Assembly (NCBI RefSeq): GCF_000377905.1
Contig: NZ_KB898873.1
Span: 310,001 to 374,000 of the forward strand
Source of the DNA: Thioalkalivibrio sp. ALMg11
GTDB taxonomy: Bacteria; Pseudomonadota; Gammaproteobacteria; Ectothiorhodospirales; Ectothiorhodospiraceae
Reading direction: 5' to 3'
Length of the DNA stretch: 64,000 bases
Part shown: positions 38,046 through 46,444 of the stretch, piece after piece
How the letters are laid out: every line of letters starts with the position of its first letter
Position numbering within the stretch: position 1 is the stretch's first letter
Translations under genes and position numbers: made by a program
The notes under the pieces: model-generated
Databases searched by the model: none
What the model saw: only the letters and a program-made list of their open reading frames with translations
What the model was told of the DNA's origin: nothing

Positions 38046-38444
38046 GTGCAATCGTCCGGAGAACATCGCAGCTGGGAGGACCGGGTCGTGGATGCGTTAC
38101 GCGCACCCGCGACCTGGCTGTTCGTGCTGGGGCTGGTGCTCGGCGCCGCCGCCGTGCACTGGGGCGTCGAGCGCCCTCCGGCCGAGGGGGCGCTGATGGT
38201 CACGGTGCACAACGACAGCGACGTGCTGATCCAGGCGATCCACTTCGACTTCGGCCACGACCTGTCGGAATCGAGCATCCGCGAGGGCCAGCTCCGGCCC
38301 GGCGAACACCGGCGGGTGGCGCTGAACCATGTCCCCGCAGCCGGCTTCAACATGGAGATCCGCTACGCTGACGGTGAGGTGCAGGAGTTTTGCGCCAACC
38401 GCGGTGTGGAGGGCTGGGAACAGGAGGTCCGGGTCTACCGCTGA
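38046..38444 (+). CDS. Uncharacterised protein with one membrane helix
   Basis: 132 residues. A membrane helix at about 23-40 (TWLFVLGLVLGAAAVHWGV) is followed by a periplasmic beta-rich domain of some 80 residues (ALMVTVHNDSDVLIQAIHFDFG ... VALNHVPAAGFNMEIRYADG). The repeat of short strands suggests a carboxypeptidase-regulatory-like or immunoglobulin-like fold, but I do not recognise the family. GTG at 38046 follows AAGGGTG. The gene stands alone behind the dyad at 38006-38038 and is convergent with the HelD gene. Confidence 0.7.
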   Translation: MQSSGEHRSWEDRVVDALRAPATWLFVLGLVLGAAAVHWGVERPPAEGALMVTVHNDSDVLIQAIHFDFGHDLSESSIREGQLRPGEHRRVALNHVPAAGFNMEIRYADGEVQEFCANRGVEGWEQEVRVYR

Positions 38445-40654: not shown

Positions 40655-41422
40655 TTACTCCAGAAAACGGCGCCGGAAGGCGTGGACGGTATCCAGCAGG
40701 TCCGGCGGCAATCGAGCCTCGGCCTGCGTGCGGATCACCTCCGGCACGCCGAAGTACGCCTCGGCGATGCCGCCGGCAATGCAGGCCTGGGTGTCAGCAT
40801 CACCGCCCAGCGATACCGCATTGCGCACCGCGTCCTCCCATGAGTCCGCCTCGAGAAAGCTGATGATCGCCTCCGGCACCGAACCCTGGCACGACACGTC
40901 GAAGCCATAGCCGGGCCGGATATCCGCGAGGCACCGGTCGAGGTCGTAGCCAAAACGCCGGGTGAGCTCCTCGCGGATGACCTCGCGATCCCCCGTCGTA
41001 CGCGCAAGAAACACCGCCAGGGCCACCGCCTGCGCCCCCTTGATGCCCTCCGGGTGATCATGCGAGATCGCGGCCGAACGCGCCGCCTCGGCCAGCACCG
41101 TGTCGACATCGGCGAATGCGAAGCCGACCGGGCTCACGCGCATCGCCGCCCCGTTGCCCCAGCTCCCGTAGGGCTGCGGATCGGCCTCCTGCAGCCAGCC
41201 GATAAAGCGCGCCCCGTAACCGGCATCCGGGTAGCGCCACCCCAACGCATGAACATGGTCGCGGTAATCCTCGTTCTCCAGGATCGCCCGCGCCACCGCG
41301 ACCGTCAGCACCGAGTCGTCGGTGAACCGGCTGCCCGGCGCGAATAGCGGGAAGTCCTTCGACTTGACCGGCCGCACCTCGAAGGTCGACCCGATGATAT
41401 CCCCGGCGATCGAACCAATCAT
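40655..41422 (-). CDS. ADP-ribosylglycohydrolase family protein
   Basis: 255 residues. The all-helical ADP-ribosylglycohydrolase fold is shown by the opening GSIAGDIIGSTFE, the metal-binding RFTDDSVLTVAVA near residue 33 and SLGGDADTQACIAGGIAEAYFG near 205; both di-metal clusters look complete. Members reverse ADP-ribosylation of proteins (DraG) or nucleic acids or act on ADP-ribose derivatives. No ADP-ribosyltransferase is visible nearby, so the target is unknown. The start is divergent from the GT4 gene, 124 bases away, and the Pho-box-like repeats lie in that gap. Confidence 0.93.
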   Translation of the reverse strand: MIGSIAGDIIGSTFEVRPVKSKDFPLFAPGSRFTDDSVLTVAVARAILENEDYRDHVHALGWRYPDAGYGARFIGWLQEADPQPYGSWGNGAAMRVSPVGFAFADVDTVLAEAARSAAISHDHPEGIKGAQAVALAVFLARTTGDREVIREELTRRFGYDLDRCLADIRPGYGFDVSCQGSVPEAIISFLEADSWEDAVRNAVSLGGDADTQACIAGGIAEAYFGVPEVIRTQAEARLPPDLLDTVHAFRRRFLE

Positions 41423-41481: not shown

Positions 41482-41499
41482 GCGTCATCACGCGGTCAT
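41482..41499 (+). promoter_or_regulatory. Pho-box-like repeat upstream of the GT4 glycosyltransferase
   Basis: GCGTCAT (41482-41488), four bases, CGGTCAT (41493-41499). The GTCAT cores are 11 bases apart, the exact phasing of the PhoB site, two CTGTCA(T/C) units with a four-base spacer. Matches to the unit are five and six of seven. It lies 48 bases before the proposed GTG start. Confidence 0.55.
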
Positions 41500-41546
41500 G
41501 CATCTTGCCCAGACTACGGGACTCGAGCCCCGTGACAGGTGCCGCC

Positions 41547-42761
41547 GTGCACATTCTGATGCTGAGCGATGTGTACTTCCCCCGGATCAACGGGGTCTCC
41601 ACCTCGCTGGACAGTTTCCGCTCACAACTTCAGAAACTGGGCCATCGCGTCACACTGGTGGCCCCGGCCTATCCTGGACTGGGCGCCCGCCCCGGCCCCG
41701 CGCCCGACGATCCGGACCTGATCCGCATCCCATCGCGGTACCTGATTGTGGACCCGGAGGATCGCATCCTGAAGGGCGGTCTCATCCGGAGGTACCTGCG
41801 GGAAGCGGGCATCGAACGTACCGACCTGATCCACATCCACACGCCCTTCGTGGCTCATTACGCCGGGCTGAATCTCGCCCGGCGCTGGCAGGTACCTGTG
41901 GTGGAGACCTACCACACCTTCTTCGAGGAGTACCTGCAGCACTACCTGCCGTGGCTGCCCGCCACTTGGCTGAGGGCCTTCGCACGCCGAATATCGCGCA
42001 GCCAATGCAATGCAGTCGACCGGGTGATCGCCCCCTCCACGGCGTTGCGCAAGGCACTACTGGACTATGGGGTCAAGACACCGATTGTCCGCCTGCCCAC
42101 CGGTATCGACCCGGAGGCCTGGACCGGGGGCGACGGACACCTGTTCCGGGCCGAGCGAGACATCCCCTACGGCCGCGAGATGCTGGTGCATGTCTCGCGC
42201 ATCGCGTTCGAAAAGAACATTGGTTTCCTGCTGCAGATGCTGCAGCACCTGCGCGAGCGACGCCCCGACATCCTGCTGCTGATTGCGGGCGAAGGGCCGG
42301 CCAAGGATGGCCTGCAGCGCCAGGCGGAACGCATGGGACTGGAGGACAACATCCACTGGTGCGGGTATTTGGACCGCACCACGTCCCTCGTTGACTGCTA
42401 CCGCGCCGGGCATGCCTTCGTGTTTGCCTCGGCCACCGAAACCCAGGGGCTAGTGCTGTTGGAGGCGATGGCCAGCAGGTTGCCGGTTGTGTCCACCGCG
42501 CGCCTGGGGACGATCGACATCCTGACTGCGGAATCCGGCGCCGAGGTCGCCCCCGAGGACCCCGCCGCCTTTGCCAAACGGGTCGCCGCGGTACTGGATG
42601 ACCCGGAACTCCAGCGGGCGATGCGCGAGGCGCACGGGCGTTGGGTGCAGCAATGGAGCGACCGACGCATGGCCGAACAACTGCTCGCCCTGTATCAGGA
42701 CCTGGCGGGCACTCCCGACTCGGTACGCGGCCCACAGCCAGCTTCCGACCGATCCCACTGA
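41547..42761 (+). CDS. GT4 glycosyltransferase, probable diacylglycerol glycosyltransferase (Agt-like)
   Basis: 404 residues in the GT-B fold. The N-terminal half opens MHILMLSDVYFPRINGVSTS and has VVETYHTFFEEYLQHYLPWLP, close in style to bacterial alpha-monoglucosyl-diacylglycerol synthases. The donor site is ETQGLVLLEAMASRLPVV with the Glu-x7-Glu pair. I infer it moves a sugar from a nucleotide sugar onto diacylglycerol. GTG at 41547 has AGGTG six bases upstream; an ATG-less extension to 41451 is less likely. It is followed by dgkA (32 bases) and a PlcP-like gene, and preceded by Pho-box-like repeats. Other GT4 acceptors such as inositol or mannose cannot be excluded. Confidence 0.85.
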   Translation: MHILMLSDVYFPRINGVSTSLDSFRSQLQKLGHRVTLVAPAYPGLGARPGPAPDDPDLIRIPSRYLIVDPEDRILKGGLIRRYLREAGIERTDLIHIHTPFVAHYAGLNLARRWQVPVVETYHTFFEEYLQHYLPWLPATWLRAFARRISRSQCNAVDRVIAPSTALRKALLDYGVKTPIVRLPTGIDPEAWTGGDGHLFRAERDIPYGREMLVHVSRIAFEKNIGFLLQMLQHLRERRPDILLLIAGEGPAKDGLQRQAERMGLEDNIHWCGYLDRTTSLVDCYRAGHAFVFASATETQGLVLLEAMASRLPVVSTARLGTIDILTAESGAEVAPEDPAAFAKRVAAVLDDPELQRAMREAHGRWVQQWSDRRMAEQLLALYQDLAGTPDSVRGPQPASDRSH

Positions 42762-42793
42762 CCCCCTTCTGAACCATTTTCGAGAACACCACG

Positions 42794-43156
42794 ATGGCCA
42801 ACGGCGGAGCGACCGGCATTGACCGCATCTTGCGGGCCTTCGTGTACTCCTGGCGCGGCCTGCGGGCGACCTTTCGCCATGAGGAGGCCTTTCGCCAGGA
42901 ACTGATCCTGGTGGTCCTGCTCGCGCCACTGTCGCTGGTCTTTGGCGAAACCCCGACCGAGCGGGCCCTGCTGCTCGGAAGCCTGTTCCTGATCCTGATC
43001 ATCGAGGTGCTGAACTCCGGCATCGAGGCCACCGTGGACCGTTTCGGACCGGAACAGCACAAGCTCGCGGCGCGCGCCAAGGACATGGGCTCCGCCGCGG
43101 TCCTGCTCGGTTTTCTGCATGCCGCCGTGATCTGGCTGCTGATCGTCTGGCCCTGA
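42794..43156 (+). CDS. dgkA: Diacylglycerol kinase
   Basis: 120 residues, the small trimeric membrane kinase DgkA, which turns diacylglycerol into phosphatidic acid. Family stretches include RAFVYSWRGLRATFRHEEAFRQE, the active-site EVLNSGIEATVDRFGPEQHKLAARAKDMGSAAVL and three membrane helices. Length and sequence match E. coli DgkA. It lies between the GT4 and PlcP-like genes. In that setting it would return diacylglycerol, released by phospholipid breakdown, to the phospholipid pool, and so would compete with the glycosyltransferase for the same substrate. Confidence 0.96.
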   Translation: MANGGATGIDRILRAFVYSWRGLRATFRHEEAFRQELILVVLLAPLSLVFGETPTERALLLGSLFLILIIEVLNSGIEATVDRFGPEQHKLAARAKDMGSAAVLLGFLHAAVIWLLIVWP

Positions 43157-43167
43157 CGGGATCCGCT

Positions 43168-43207
43168 CCATCACCCAATCGTCATCGTCTCGCCACAAGC
43201 CAGTCAC
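43168..43207 (+). promoter_or_regulatory. Four 11-nt-phased Pho-box-like half-sites upstream of the PlcP-like gene
   Basis: CCATCAC (43168), TCGTCAT (43179), TCGCCAC (43190) and CAGTCAC (43201) occur every 11 bases, each separated by four. Against CTGTCA(T/C) they match at 5, 5, 4 and 6 of 7 positions. The tract is centred about 60 bases before the ATG. Confidence 0.55.
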
Positions 43208-43250
43208 TCCGTCGCGCGATGCTGACGGCACGCCTCAGCGGGAGTACCCG

Positions 43251-44069
43251 ATGGCCACCCTGGATTGCCGCACCCTGTTCCTGTCCGACCTGCACCTGGG
43301 CACCCGCGAATGCCGCGCGGAATACCTGCTGGACCTGCTGCGCCAGGTGAACTGCGACCGTCTGGTGATGGTCGGCGACGTGTTCGACCTCTGGGCCATG
43401 CGCCGGCGCATCTTCTGGAACGCGACCCAGGCGGCGGTCGTCGAGCAGGTCCTGTCCCTGGCGCTGCACGGGGTCGAGGTGATCTACATCCCCGGCAATC
43501 ACGATGAAGTCGTGCGCGACTTCGTCGGCTCCGAGATCCGCGGCGTTCGCATCGAACGCGAACTGGTGCACTGGACGGCCGACGGCCGCCGCTTTCGCGT
43601 AACCCATGGCGACGAATTCGACGGCGTCGTGCGCCATAGTCGCCTGGTGCACTGGCTGGGCGACCTGGGCTACAACCTGCTGCTGCGCGGCAGCCGCTAC
43701 CTGAACAGCATCCGCCGCCGCCTCGGCCACCCGTACTGGTCCCTGTCCGCCTGGCTTAAGACCCGCGTCAGTCATGCCGCCCGCGAGTACATCCGCCGCT
43801 TCGAGCACGCCGCCGTCACGACCGCGCGCAAGGGCGGATTCGACGGCTGCATCTGCGGCCACATCCACAAGCCGAACGTCGAGTCCTTCGGTGACGTCCT
43901 CTACTGCAACGATGGCGACTGGGTCGAGCACTGTACCGCCCTGGTGGAAGATCGCGCCGGCAATCTCAGCCTGCTGCACTGGTCGGATCATGGCGCTGTA
44001 CAGAGCGCGGAGGCGGGCGCATCCACGGTCGATGCACTCGATCTCGAGTCGCTCCTCGCCAAGCGGTAA
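43251..44069 (+). CDS. PlcP-like calcineurin-fold phosphoesterase (phospholipase C type)
   Basis: 272 residues. Metal ligands of the calcineurin fold are present: Asp-x-His in FLSDLHLGTRE, Asp in MVGDVFDLW, Asn-His in IPGNHDEVV, His in VTHGDEFDGVV and the pair GHIHKPNV. Such proteins are often labelled UDP-2,3-diacylglucosamine hydrolases (LpxH), but the length, the RFRVTHGDEFD stretch and the ending CNDGDWVEHCTALVEDRAGNL fit PlcP, which splits phosphatidylcholine and phosphatidylethanolamine to diacylglycerol under phosphate starvation. GGGAG precedes the ATG. Context with a GT4 enzyme and Pho-box-like repeats supports PlcP over LpxH. Confidence 0.82.
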   Translation: MATLDCRTLFLSDLHLGTRECRAEYLLDLLRQVNCDRLVMVGDVFDLWAMRRRIFWNATQAAVVEQVLSLALHGVEVIYIPGNHDEVVRDFVGSEIRGVRIERELVHWTADGRRFRVTHGDEFDGVVRHSRLVHWLGDLGYNLLLRGSRYLNSIRRRLGHPYWSLSAWLKTRVSHAAREYIRRFEHAAVTTARKGGFDGCICGHIHKPNVESFGDVLYCNDGDWVEHCTALVEDRAGNLSLLHWSDHGAVQSAEAGASTVDALDLESLLAKR

Positions 44070-44076
44070 CCGGCCC

Positions 44077-44105
44077 TTGTCACCGGGCTGTCATGGGCCT
44101 GTAGT
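44077..44105 (+). promoter_or_regulatory. Strong Pho box upstream of the 44.1-kb membrane protein gene
   Basis: TTGTCAC (44077-44083), CGGG, CTGTCAT (44088-44094), GGGC, CTGTAGT (44099-44105). The middle unit is a perfect match to the PhoB repeat and the first has six of seven, at exact 11-base phasing. The start codon follows 11 bases after the last unit, so the transcript may have a very short leader. Confidence 0.7.
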
Positions 44106-44116
44106 ACCGTGGACAC

Positions 44117-44518
44117 ATGAGCGAATCACGATCGCGTCACTGGGCGGGGGCCGGCGCCGACCTGCTCCTGCTGCTGCAATCCATCGAGAACAGCGAGCAG
44201 GCCCAGCGCCTGGCGCGCGTGGCCGGCTGGGTGCTGGTATTCGCCGGGGTCGTGGTTGTGTTGCTGGGCGTCCTTGTGCAGCACACACCCACGATGATCG
44301 AGGGCACGCTAGTCGCGCTGCTCGCACTGGTGGGCGGCTGGCTGCGCAGCCGGGCCGCCGCCACGTTGCTGATGCTGCTGATGGCACTGGGGCTGGCCAC
44401 CGGCCTCGCGCTGGGCGCAGCGACCGGCGGACTCCTGCTGCAGGTCGCGTTATTCGGCGTCGCCCTGCGCATGGTCGAAGGCACCTTCCGCTTCCGTCGC
44501 CTCGCAACCGACGAGTAG
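44117..44518 (+). CDS. Uncharacterised small membrane protein, probable Pho-regulon member
   Basis: 133 residues with four hydrophobic segments (about 33-52, 57-75, 80-101 and 103-115) after a short charged N-terminus (MSESRSRHWAGAGADLLLLLQSIENSEQAQRLARV). I do not recognise the family and see no catalytic motif. It follows the PlcP-like gene by 47 bases and has the best Pho box in the window directly before it. No clear ribosome site is seen, so it may be translated from a leaderless or near-leaderless message. A role beside the lipid enzymes, such as lipid movement or membrane adjustment, is only a guess. Confidence 0.72.
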   Translation: MSESRSRHWAGAGADLLLLLQSIENSEQAQRLARVAGWVLVFAGVVVVLLGVLVQHTPTMIEGTLVALLALVGGWLRSRAAATLLMLLMALGLATGLALGAATGGLLLQVALFGVALRMVEGTFRFRRLATDE

Positions 44519-44758: not shown

Positions 44759-46444
44759 ATGTCCGTCGTCGGCCGCCTGCAAACCCGTCTGCGCGCCTTC
44801 ATCTGGCCCGCCTGGGCCAACCGCATCCTCGGGACGCTGTCGATCCCGGGGCTGATCCTGGCCACGCTGTTCTTTGCCGCCTCGCTGACCCCCAGCCTGA
44901 TCCCGCGCACCGATGACGTACAGGGCATCCTGTCCGGGGTTTCACTGGCGGCCGGCTACGGCGTGGGCGTGTTTTTCCACTGGCTGTGGTCCTACCTGGA
45001 GCTGCCGGAGCTTGGCGAACGCACCCACAACACCCTGGTGGTGATCGCCGGCGGCGGGGCCGTGCTGATCGTGCTGATCTTCCTGTGGCAAGCCACCGAG
45101 TGGCAGAACAGCATCCGCGCGCTCATGGAACAGGAGCCGGTGGACGGTGGATTCCCCATACGCCTGGGGCTGATCGCAGCGGCGGTGTTCATCGCCACGC
45201 TGGCCGTGGCACGGCTGTTCCAGTTGCTGGTGCGCTTCCTCGCGCGGCACCTGCGCCGCTTCATCCCGCGCCGGCTGTCCAACGTGATTGGCGTGCTGGT
45301 GGCGGCCGGGGTGTTCTGGGCGGTGATCGACGGGGTCATCCTGGAATACAGCCTGCGCGCCGCCGATCGCAGCTTCCAGCAGTTCGACGTACGCGAACAC
45401 CCCGGGGCGGAGCAGCCGGGCGCGGCCTTCCGCACCGGCAGCCCGGCCTCGCTGATCAGCTGGGACGAGGGCCTGGGCCGCCAGGGCCAGCGTTTCATCG
45501 ACCAAGCCCCGGACGCCGCCGCGATTAGCGACTTCACCGGTGACGGAGCGCTGGACCCGATCCGCGTGTATGTGGGGCTGAACGCCGCCGAGACCATCGA
45601 GGAACGCGCGCGACTGGCCCTGCAGGAGATGCTGCGGGTCAATGCCTTCGACCGTTCGGTGCTGGTGCTGGCCACGCCCACCGGACGCGGCTGGGTGGAC
45701 AACCGTGCGATCCAGCCGGTCGAGTACCTGCACGGTGGCGATGTGTCCACCGTGGCCGTGCAGTACTCCTACCTGCCGAGCTGGTTGTCGCTGATGGCGG
45801 AATCGCAATACGGTCACGAGACCGCCCAGGCGGTCTTCGCTGAGATCTACGGCTACTGGAAACAGCTACCGCCGGACGCCCGCCCGGACCTGTACCTCTA
45901 TGGCCTGAGCCTCGGGGCGCTGAACTCCGAGCGGGCGGCAGACCTGTACGACGTAATCGGCGACCCGTTCTCCGGCGCGCTGTGGGCCGGCCCTCCGTTT
46001 CGTAGCGAGACCTGGCACGACATCGTGCGCCAGCGCCAACCCGACTCGCCGGCCTGGCTGCCGCGCTTTCGCGACAGTTCGGTGGTGCGCTTCACCAATC
46101 AGGGAAACCACCTGGATATCCCCGGCGCCGAATGGGGCCCGATGCGCATCGTCTACCTGCAATACGCCAGCGACCCGGTCACCTTCTTCGAGCCCCAGGC
46201 CCTGTACCGCCAGCCGGAATGGATGCAGGCTCCGCGCGGCCCGGATGTCTCCCCGGACCTGACCTGGTACCCGGTGATCACCATGTTGCAGCTGGCGGTC
46301 GACGTCGCGATCGGCGACGCCGCCCCGCGCGGCTACGGCCACGTCTATGCCACCGAGCACTACATCGATGCCTGGCAGGCGGTGACAAACGTGGACAGGT
46401 CAGCGGACGAGATCGCGTGGCTCAAACGCCACCTGGCCGACTGA
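44759..46444 (+). CDS. Membrane alpha/beta-hydrolase (Abhydrolase_9 family)
   Basis: 561 residues. The N-terminal 220 residues carry about five membrane helices (IPGLILATLFFAASLTPSLIPR, LVVIAGGGAVLIVLIFLW, LIAAAVFIATLAVARLFQLL and others), matching the Abhydrolase_9 N-terminal module. The cytoplasmic or periplasmic C-terminal domain has the nucleophile elbow YLYGLSLGALNSE (Gly-x-Ser-x-Gly) around residue 380 and NQGNHLDIPGAEWG near the end. The substrate is not known; such proteins are suspected lipases or esterases. Its position after the Pho-linked lipid genes is suggestive, but 240 bases with a repeat separate them and no Pho box was found before it. Confidence 0.87.
   Translation: MSVVGRLQTRLRAFIWPAWANRILGTLSIPGLILATLFFAASLTPSLIPRTDDVQGILSGVSLAAGYGVGVFFHWLWSYLELPELGERTHNTLVVIAGGGAVLIVLIFLWQATEWQNSIRALMEQEPVDGGFPIRLGLIAAAVFIATLAVARLFQLLVRFLARHLRRFIPRRLSNVIGVLVAAGVFWAVIDGVILEYSLRAADRSFQQFDVREHPGAEQPGAAFRTGSPASLISWDEGLGRQGQRFIDQAPDAAAISDFTGDGALDPIRVYVGLNAAETIEERARLALQEMLRVNAFDRSVLVLATPTGRGWVDNRAIQPVEYLHGGDVSTVAVQYSYLPSWLSLMAESQYGHETAQAVFAEIYGYWKQLPPDARPDLYLYGLSLGALNSERAADLYDVIGDPFSGALWAGPPFRSETWHDIVRQRQPDSPAWLPRFRDSSVVRFTNQGNHLDIPGAEWGPMRIVYLQYASDPVTFFEPQALYRQPEWMQAPRGPDVSPDLTWYPVITMLQLAVDVAIGDAAPRGYGHVYATEHYIDAWQAVTNVDRSADEIAWLKRHLAD

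Follow-up and report, generated by a model that had tools for sequence, protein, structure and literature searches.

Gene cluster and feature positions

The window analysed here is a stretch of 64,000 nucleotides from Thioalkalivibrio sp. ALMg11 (G000:C3:310001-374000; the genome, G000, comprises 3.04 Mb on 18 contigs). Four consecutive genes on its + strand encode a GT4 glycosyltransferase (GT4a), a diacylglycerol kinase (DgkA), a PlcP-like phosphoesterase and a small membrane protein. Direct repeats spaced at 11 bases precede the glycosyltransferase, phosphoesterase and membrane-protein genes, and none precede dgkA. As read from the sequence, the locus very probably serves membrane remodelling during phosphate starvation under the control of PhoB. 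The preliminary description had placed the four genes on one strand, with repeat arrays at 41482-41499, 43168-43207 and 44077-44105; all of these positions were recovered exactly. The features are collated below (window coordinates).

41482..41515, + strand: putative PhoB-type promoter of the GT4-dgkA unit; two 11-base units (41482-41499), 10 bases, -10-like hexamer CAGACT (41510-41515)
41547..42761, + strand: GT4a, GT4 glycosyltransferase of 404 amino acids, GTG start; Pfam Glyco_transf_4 and Glycos_transf_1
42794..43156, + strand: dgkA, diacylglycerol kinase, second copy in the genome; Pfam DAGK_prokar, 116 bits
43168..43223, + strand: putative PhoB-type promoter of plcP; four phased units (43168-43207), 10 bases, -10-like hexamer GATGCT (43218-43223)
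43251..44069, + strand: plcP, predicted phospholipase C of the metallophosphoesterase superfamily; in one clade with PlcP of Sinorhizobium meliloti and Pseudomonas aeruginosa
44077..44110, + strand: putative PhoB-type promoter upstream of the membrane-protein gene; two units (44077-44083, 44088-44094) and a stretch resembling a third as far as 44105, -10-like hexamer TACCGT (44105-44110), ATG six bases further on
44117..44518, + strand: small hydrophobic membrane protein of 133 amino acids; no Pfam or NCBIfam family over threshold

Pho boxes and promoter geometry

Pho boxes were scored with a matrix built from those of 19 phoB and 12 pstC loci of the own genome and its relatives, with no site of the cluster among them. 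The phoB loci were 19 of the 20 of the genus (L157, with too little upstream DNA, was left out). Seven columns per unit were scored, the spacer being excluded. The number of equal scores expected per gap was taken from 145 kb of own-genome DNA, in which the three cluster sites and the pst/phoB region were included. Because the genome's own phoB and pstC sites belong to the training set, their scores are not independent.

The gap before the GT4 gene scored 11.8 bits with two units (0.008 equal scores expected per gap), that before plcP 17.1 bits with four units (0.0023; 0.012 with two units), and that before the membrane-protein gene 19.1 bits (0.0005). The corresponding expectations were 0.39 and 1.7 for two control gaps, before dgkA and before the next gene after the membrane-protein gene, and 0.0014, 0.0014 and 0.0028 for the reference gaps of pstS, pstC and phoB (the last two being training sites). 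When each gap was redrawn 20,000 times from a first-order Markov model, the observed score was reached by 142 redraws for GT4, by four for plcP and by none for the membrane-protein gene. The best pair of units was spaced at 11 bases in the GT4 and membrane-protein gaps. In the plcP gap a pair at spacing 8 (9.6) equals the pair at spacing 11 (9.2), and the two-unit score, reached by 158 of 5000 redraws, is not special alone; what stands out there is the phased array of three and four units. All three arrays hold their register in each of the five genomes with the cluster (G000, G003, G021, G024 and G026), with two-unit scores before GT4 from 7.8 (G026, one unit degraded) to 13.1.

The last unit of each array in the window lies about 10 bases before a -10-like hexamer, which is the geometry of PhoB promoters and is the same as that of Escherichia coli pstS. 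Among 31 promoters, a hexamer of the form xAxxxT was found exactly 10 bases past the last unit in 30 (pstC 10/10, GT4 5/5, plcP 5/6, membrane protein 10/10), and at each spacing of 3-9 or 11-19 bases in two at most. These rows are related, so that the independent cases are fewer than 31. The spacing was retained in all five cluster genomes before both plcP and GT4, and the plcP row that failed was L132, in the three-unit register. The test covered ten of the twelve pstC loci (L184 and L185, whose gene starts were not resolved, were left out, as were the phoB, pstS and ppk promoters).

A strict pattern, GTCAY-N6-GTCAY-N11-A-N3-T, gave five exact matches in the 3.04 Mb of the genome, and two of these lie inside this 3-kb cluster. 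The five precede pstC, the GT4 gene, the membrane-protein gene, a gene for a membrane protein with a Yip1 domain, and a gene for glyceraldehyde-3-phosphate dehydrogenase (GAPDH). With one mismatch allowed, 28 matches were obtained in total, compared with 10 for the reversed control pattern, and plcP and a gene whose sequence reads as polyphosphate kinase were then included. Two of the controls proposed in the preliminary description, scoring with a PhoB matrix and conservation in relatives, thus came out in favour of the sites: the cluster gaps exceed the control gaps in expected counts and redraws as well as in -10 spacing and strict pattern, and the sites are kept in relatives. We infer that the three sites are PhoB-dependent promoters to which PhoB binds.

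Since the -10 hexamer ends six bases 5' of the ATG in the membrane-protein and Yip1 genes, leaderless mRNAs are predicted for both. The Yip1 site (G000:C4:74677-74708; locus L306, 1501-2165) is an exact strict match. A three-unit Pho box also stands before the polyphosphate-kinase-like gene (L010, 9922-9950; G000:C7:89922).

Phosphoesterase

The phosphoesterase carries the metal-binding motifs of metallophosphoesterases and the residues that PlcPs have in common (DLHLG, GDVFD, GNHDE, HGDEFD, CGHIH and GDWVE). In a tree for which 13 of 80 named loci were used, 35 PlcP rows were separated from seven LpxH rows by one branch (support 100/100), with the PlcPs of S. meliloti and P. aeruginosa on the PlcP side. 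Identity was 43% over 238 residues to the S. meliloti protein and 45% to the P. aeruginosa copy (L280); the closest named PlcP among the records searched was that of Ectothiorhodospira shaposhnikovii (60%). From the gene order, these two reference rows would be the plcP genes that have been studied. The S. meliloti row is presumably SMc00171, judged by its place near genes for an acyl-homoserine lactone synthase and LuxR in L279.

The profile comparison of PlcP with LpxH, as the preliminary description had framed it, gave a divided answer. The best NCBIfam matches are literally LpxH models, but they lie far under their cut-offs (43 of 134 bits and 34 of 190 bits). The matter is decided by the tree together with a genuine LpxH encoded elsewhere, at G000:C5:147325 (234.7 bits, cut-off 190.35): LpxH is ruled out, and because of the tree split and the second protein the enzyme is a PlcP by family, as had been claimed. 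Its phospholipase C activity is predicted from this membership. Three matches of PlcP to solved structures, chains named SAKe6, consisted of repeated low-scoring stretches and were taken as chance.

Genes for plcP were also seen on three records filed as P. aeruginosa plasmids. On L280 (2956-4820) a glycosyltransferase gene comes after plcP, and the surrounding genes have a chromosomal look.

Glycosyltransferase

The preliminary description had likened the GT4 enzyme to diacylglycerol glycosyltransferases, with PlcP and Agt as the known model. The likeness is compatible with the profile matches: the two best NCBIfam models are both glycolipid synthases, alpha-monoglucosyldiacylglycerol synthase (120 bits, cut-off 400) and N-acetylglucosaminyl phosphatidylglycerol synthase (112 bits, cut-off 480), each matched under its cut-off. 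The enzyme is not an Agt. In the tree, 17 GT4a rows form one clade (100/100) and 11 Agt rows another (100/98), while 12 rows of a further subfamily, GT4b, form a third group; Agt membership is thereby ruled out, and GT4a shares 30% identity with the P. aeruginosa Agt. From its context GT4a is proposed to be a diacylglycerol glycosyltransferase of another GT4 subfamily.

A strong GT4a match was found in 18 of 58 genomes, in 11 of these within about 3 kb of PlcP. Four of the other seven (G030, G031, G034 and G053) carry a two-unit box of 12.5-13.7 bits before GT4a, and the remaining three (G007, G013 and G032) have none. In G013, GT4a is followed by a boxed GAPDH gene and dgkA, and in G007 by a boxed GAPDH gene. 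All five genomes with a cluster of the window type have the GT4a box. On plasmid pTs417 of Candidatus Thiodictyon syntrophicum, a gene of the GT4a type (53%) and plcP are divergent neighbours, with boxes of 15.4 bits towards GT4 and 7.9 bits towards PlcP.

As regards the GT4b subfamily, three-unit Pho arrays of 18-23 bits were present in 11 of 11 genomes of one group (L248-L258). Among the other 19 copies, L277 was comparable (21.5 bits) and L272 intermediate (12.4 bits), and the own-genome copy has none.

Diacylglycerol kinase

The dgkA gene starts 32 bases after the GT4 gene, without a Pho box of its own. Its product belongs to the DAGK_prokar family (116 bits, cut-off 22) and matches a solved diacylglycerol kinase over nearly the whole length (109 bits), with the core around IEVLNSGIEA and RAKDMGSAAVL, presumably the catalytic region, almost identical; the solved protein is presumably that of E. 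coli. The gene is an extra copy. A paralogue lies at G000:C2:283290, a second dgkA stands elsewhere in all five cluster genomes, and the copies in the clusters group as a single clade. Among near relatives that lack the cluster, G008, G010 and G022 have one dgkA and G001 and G004 have none.

Of the 58 genomes searched, 23 had a PlcP match at E below 1e-60, and in 12 of them dgkA was no more than 3 kb away, namely in the five cluster genomes and G002, G014, G030, G034, G036, G051 and G057. Stand-alone dgkA genes carry boxes in G009 (16.0 bits) and G011 (19.0 bits). The earlier proposal that DgkA is built into the system gains from the 32-base distance to GT4, the second copy in 5/5 genomes, the nearness to plcP in seven further genomes and the gene's own box in two.

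Membrane protein

The membrane protein was found in 15 of 40 genomes, the own genome included and all of one genus, and additionally in G026; other genera of the family were hardly sampled, the 40-genome set being without G030-G036 and the class-wide set including at least G033. A profile search of 274 genomes of the class gave two certain matches (the own genome and G022). A third (G163, 20.5 bits), inside a frame of 4460 residues, was taken as chance.

A Pho box lies 22-23 bases before the ATG in ten genomes (11.5 bits in G010, 16-21 bits in the others): the five with the cluster and five without an intact plcP (G001, G004, G008, G010 and G022). In six more distant genomes the box is absent. 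In three of these (G007, G014 and G019) the gene comes directly after phoU and is read in the same direction, and in the other three (G002, G011 and G015) neither a box nor adjacency to phoU was seen. The protein would thus be a member of the phosphate response in most genomes that have its gene. As to its place in a lipid locus, which had been assumed, the link to Pho holds for ten genomes; a role in lipids is unproven, because the boxed gene is kept in five genomes without intact plcP.

No Pfam or NCBIfam family exceeded its threshold, and a profile search against solved structures gave nothing up to E = 1. The fold predicted from the single sequence (mean predicted local distance difference test score, pLDDT, 65; predicted template-modelling score, pTM, 0.32) showed helices only and was too poor for a fold search. 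PsiE was rejected as an identity: it was not among the 14 Pfam families matched at E ≤ 1 by any of 15 orthologues, and a true PsiE is encoded elsewhere in the genome (G000:C4:375943).

In all ten genomes with the boxed gene the following gene is the one listed here:

44759..46444, + strand: Abhydrolase_9 membrane hydrolase; Pfam PF10081 and PF15420; 3' of the membrane-protein gene

Its own gap has a negative score with the PhoB matrix and so lacks a Pho box. The gene may be co-transcribed with the membrane-protein gene, and it is not counted as a proven part of the cluster. At the other end, a gene of the ADP-ribosylglycohydrolase family (40655-41422, - strand) is divergent from the GT4 promoter.

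Related genomes and a larger island

Sister genomes contain a longer island, the fullest order being an OlsB-like acyltransferase gene, GT4a, GAPDH, dgkA and plcP. All five genes are present in G002, where the contig ends within the OlsB-like gene. The island lacks dgkA in G005 and G015, and GAPDH and dgkA in G009 and G011; in G009 and G014 only a remnant of GT4a is left. The OlsB-like gene, which resembles those for ornithine N-acyltransferases, was found upstream of GT4a or its remnant in seven of 35 loci compared (L135, L133, L137, L129, L130, L136 and L228), with three-unit boxes of 15.8-24.8 bits and the 10-base spacing in all five loci where the start was at hand. Its scores lie under the OlsB cut-offs (157 and 164 bits compared with 320 and 350), and these genes perhaps add another type of lipid without phosphorus to the island. 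The cluster is convergent on phoU-pstB in five of the 20 loci fetched. There plcP faces phoU-pstB directly in G005, G015 and G036, and the membrane-protein gene lies in between in G014 and G019 (of G019 only the plcP end is on the contig).

The GAPDH of the island is of the ArsJ-associated kind (own copy 515 bits, G014 copy 517 bits, cut-off 450). A box precedes its gene in seven of the 11 genomes with the start at hand (G000, G005, G007, G013, G015, G017 and G027), and none was found in the other four (G002, G014, G016 and G033). In the own genome this gene stands outside the cluster, before an ArsJ gene (567 bits, cut-off 400). The two form an apparent operon (L331, 4848-7104) under an exact strict match (G000:C4:351131-351162, - strand), which suggests, from the sequence, a phosphate-controlled detoxification of arsenate.

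G008 is a near relative that shares an identical PhoB with the own genome. At this place it lacks a gene read as helicase-like, the ADP-ribosylglycohydrolase gene, GT4, dgkA and most of plcP. It keeps a 3' remnant of plcP, the boxed membrane-protein gene and the Abhydrolase_9 gene (L143, 7548-7832); the remnant lies directly 3' of the gene that ends at 38444 in the window. No strong GT4a match was found elsewhere in G008.

Proposed mechanism and alternatives

At low phosphate, PhoB would act on the phased repeats and switch on the GT4-dgkA and plcP units and, separately, the membrane-protein gene. PlcP would remove the phosphate head group from phospholipids and leave diacylglycerol, to which GT4 would add a sugar to give a phosphorus-free glycolipid. 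The extra DgkA would convert excess diacylglycerol back to phosphatidic acid, which would keep the pool small and allow the swap to be tuned or reversed. The membrane protein would be a lineage-specific product of the Pho regulon. The proposal of the preliminary description, a PlcP/GT4 system of lipid remodelling under PhoB, is upheld by the matrix scores, the conservation and the PlcP tree. The sequence itself shows that PlcP and DgkA belong to their families, that the promoter-like sites are present and conserved, and that dgkA has an extra copy. What the enzymes do, which sugar is added, how diacylglycerol moves and what DgkA contributes are what we infer from these data.

Several observations weigh against this reading. 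The distribution is patchy, with a strong PlcP match in 23 of the 58 genomes and in 11 of 30 within the own genus, and G008 has lost the cluster, about 5.5 kb being missing from the helicase-like gene to most of plcP; this loss implies that the cluster is dispensable in some habitats. The GT4 and plcP boxes score below those of pstS and pstC. GT4a reaches none of the curated NCBIfam cut-offs shown and falls outside the Agt clade. In six genomes GT4a stands beside plcP without a good box directly before it (G002, G005, G011, G015, G051 and G057); a boxed OlsB-like gene lies upstream in G005, G011 and G015, and no promoter for GT4a was found in G051 and G057. With regard to dgkA, G035 (two copies) and G057 (three copies) are also multi-copy genomes without a cluster of the window type; among the 20 copies scored that lie away from plcP, strong boxes precede two, G027 has a tandem repeat that is ambiguous, and no good box was seen before the others. 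In G030 and G034 the gene before dgkA reads, by its sequence, as one for glycine cleavage, so that its nearness to plcP may be incidental there, and in G021 the dgkA of the cluster breaks off after residue 96. The benefit of DgkA is not self-evident either, since it competes with GT4 for the same substrate. G021 also has some 285 bases more than the window between the dgkA break and plcP (L128, 9022-9478).

A cluster of envelope genes unrelated to phosphate, with the phosphoesterase as LpxH or another enzyme of lipid A and the GT4 enzyme as a builder of lipopolysaccharide or exopolysaccharide, is very improbable. An LpxH-type model is the best NCBIfam match of the phosphoesterase, and most PlcP relatives among the plasmid matches listed are annotated as UDP-2,3-diacylglucosamine diphosphatase; this is opposed by the true LpxH encoded elsewhere, by the 100/100 split of the two families and by the PhoB-type promoters before the cluster genes. 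It is somewhat easier to imagine, though still unlikely, that PlcP remodels lipids while the GT4-dgkA unit works towards something else, for example a phospholipid bearing a sugar or an anchor for a polysaccharide, and DgkA recycles the diacylglycerol released on the way. DgkA commonly recycles the diacylglycerol released by glycerophosphate transfer, and GT4a resembles N-acetylglucosaminyl phosphatidylglycerol synthase at 112 bits, under the cut-off of 480. However, GT4 has a PhoB-type promoter and GT4a is repeatedly found in the company of plcP, and a lipid that retains its phosphate would save no phosphorus.

The membrane protein stands apart from this choice. That it belongs to phosphate uptake or sensing (Pst/PhoU) and merely neighbours the lipid cluster has about an even chance, and would be compatible with lipid remodelling by the other three genes. 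The position of its gene behind phoU in three genomes and the retention of its Pho box in five without intact plcP speak for such a role; G002, G011 and G015, in which neither link was found, speak against it.

Within the proposed PhoB-controlled remodelling of lipids, a more specific picture can be offered tentatively, as a conjecture that could well be wrong. The locus may form a branch point for diacylglycerol that is run by PhoB, in which a second DgkA, co-transcribed with a non-Agt GT4, splits the diacylglycerol derived from PlcP between glycolipid and phospholipid; the membrane protein, specific to the genus and translated from a leaderless mRNA of the Pho response, might help the membrane or Pst/PhoU to adapt.

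Relation to known systems and significance

According to the study on P. aeruginosa (PMC8528852), lipids are renovated there by PlcP and Agt (PA3219-PA3218 and PA0842), with plcP followed by the glycosyltransferase gene. The locus of the window resembles this in having PlcP and GT4 in one Pho-boxed locus and differs in that GT4 is non-Agt and dgkA and the membrane-protein gene are added; in the main text of that paper no word begins with 'dgk'. The S. meliloti PlcP falls into the same clade with respect to LpxH (43% identity), but there is no annotated glycosyltransferase neighbour within the 10.7-kb stretch around its gene. In marine bacteria plcP stands beside agt, other glycosyltransferase genes or btaA/btaB, with Pho boxes reported (PMC4796936), and Methylosinus trichosporium has a plcP-agt arrangement (PMC9239053). 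Both share with the window a plcP that adjoins agt or another glycosyltransferase gene, and in the main texts of both papers no word begins with 'kinase'. In Pseudomonas putida BIRD-1, PlcP, DagK, OlsA and OlsB are reported to appear under phosphate stress in a PHO-dependent, lipid-remodelling response (PMC5082522). A diacylglycerol kinase and OlsB alongside PlcP are thus a point of likeness, and the involvement of such a kinase has a precedent. The difference is that these are proteins of a proteome, whereas here dgkA shares a unit with the glycosyltransferase gene. A full-text search of the literature returned no paper joining Thioalkalivibrio and PlcP, and none joining diacylglycerol kinase, phosphate limitation, glycosyltransferase and PhoB.

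The locus would accordingly be a new variant of lipid remodelling by PlcP and a glycosyltransferase, the principle of which is published and the composition and regulation of which appear to be new. A simple signature (two GTCAY units at 11 bases, 10 bases, then xAxxxT) picks out Pho promoters of this genome, and one of them belongs to a membrane protein that is linked to Pho and has no description in Pfam or NCBIfam. G000 and G008 form a close natural pair, with and without the cluster, in which the benefit of the cluster could be measured. The swapping of lipids driven by phosphate would be extended to Thioalkalivibrio, a genus of haloalkaliphilic sulfur oxidisers, with a non-Agt glycosyltransferase and with a diacylglycerol kinase in the same unit.

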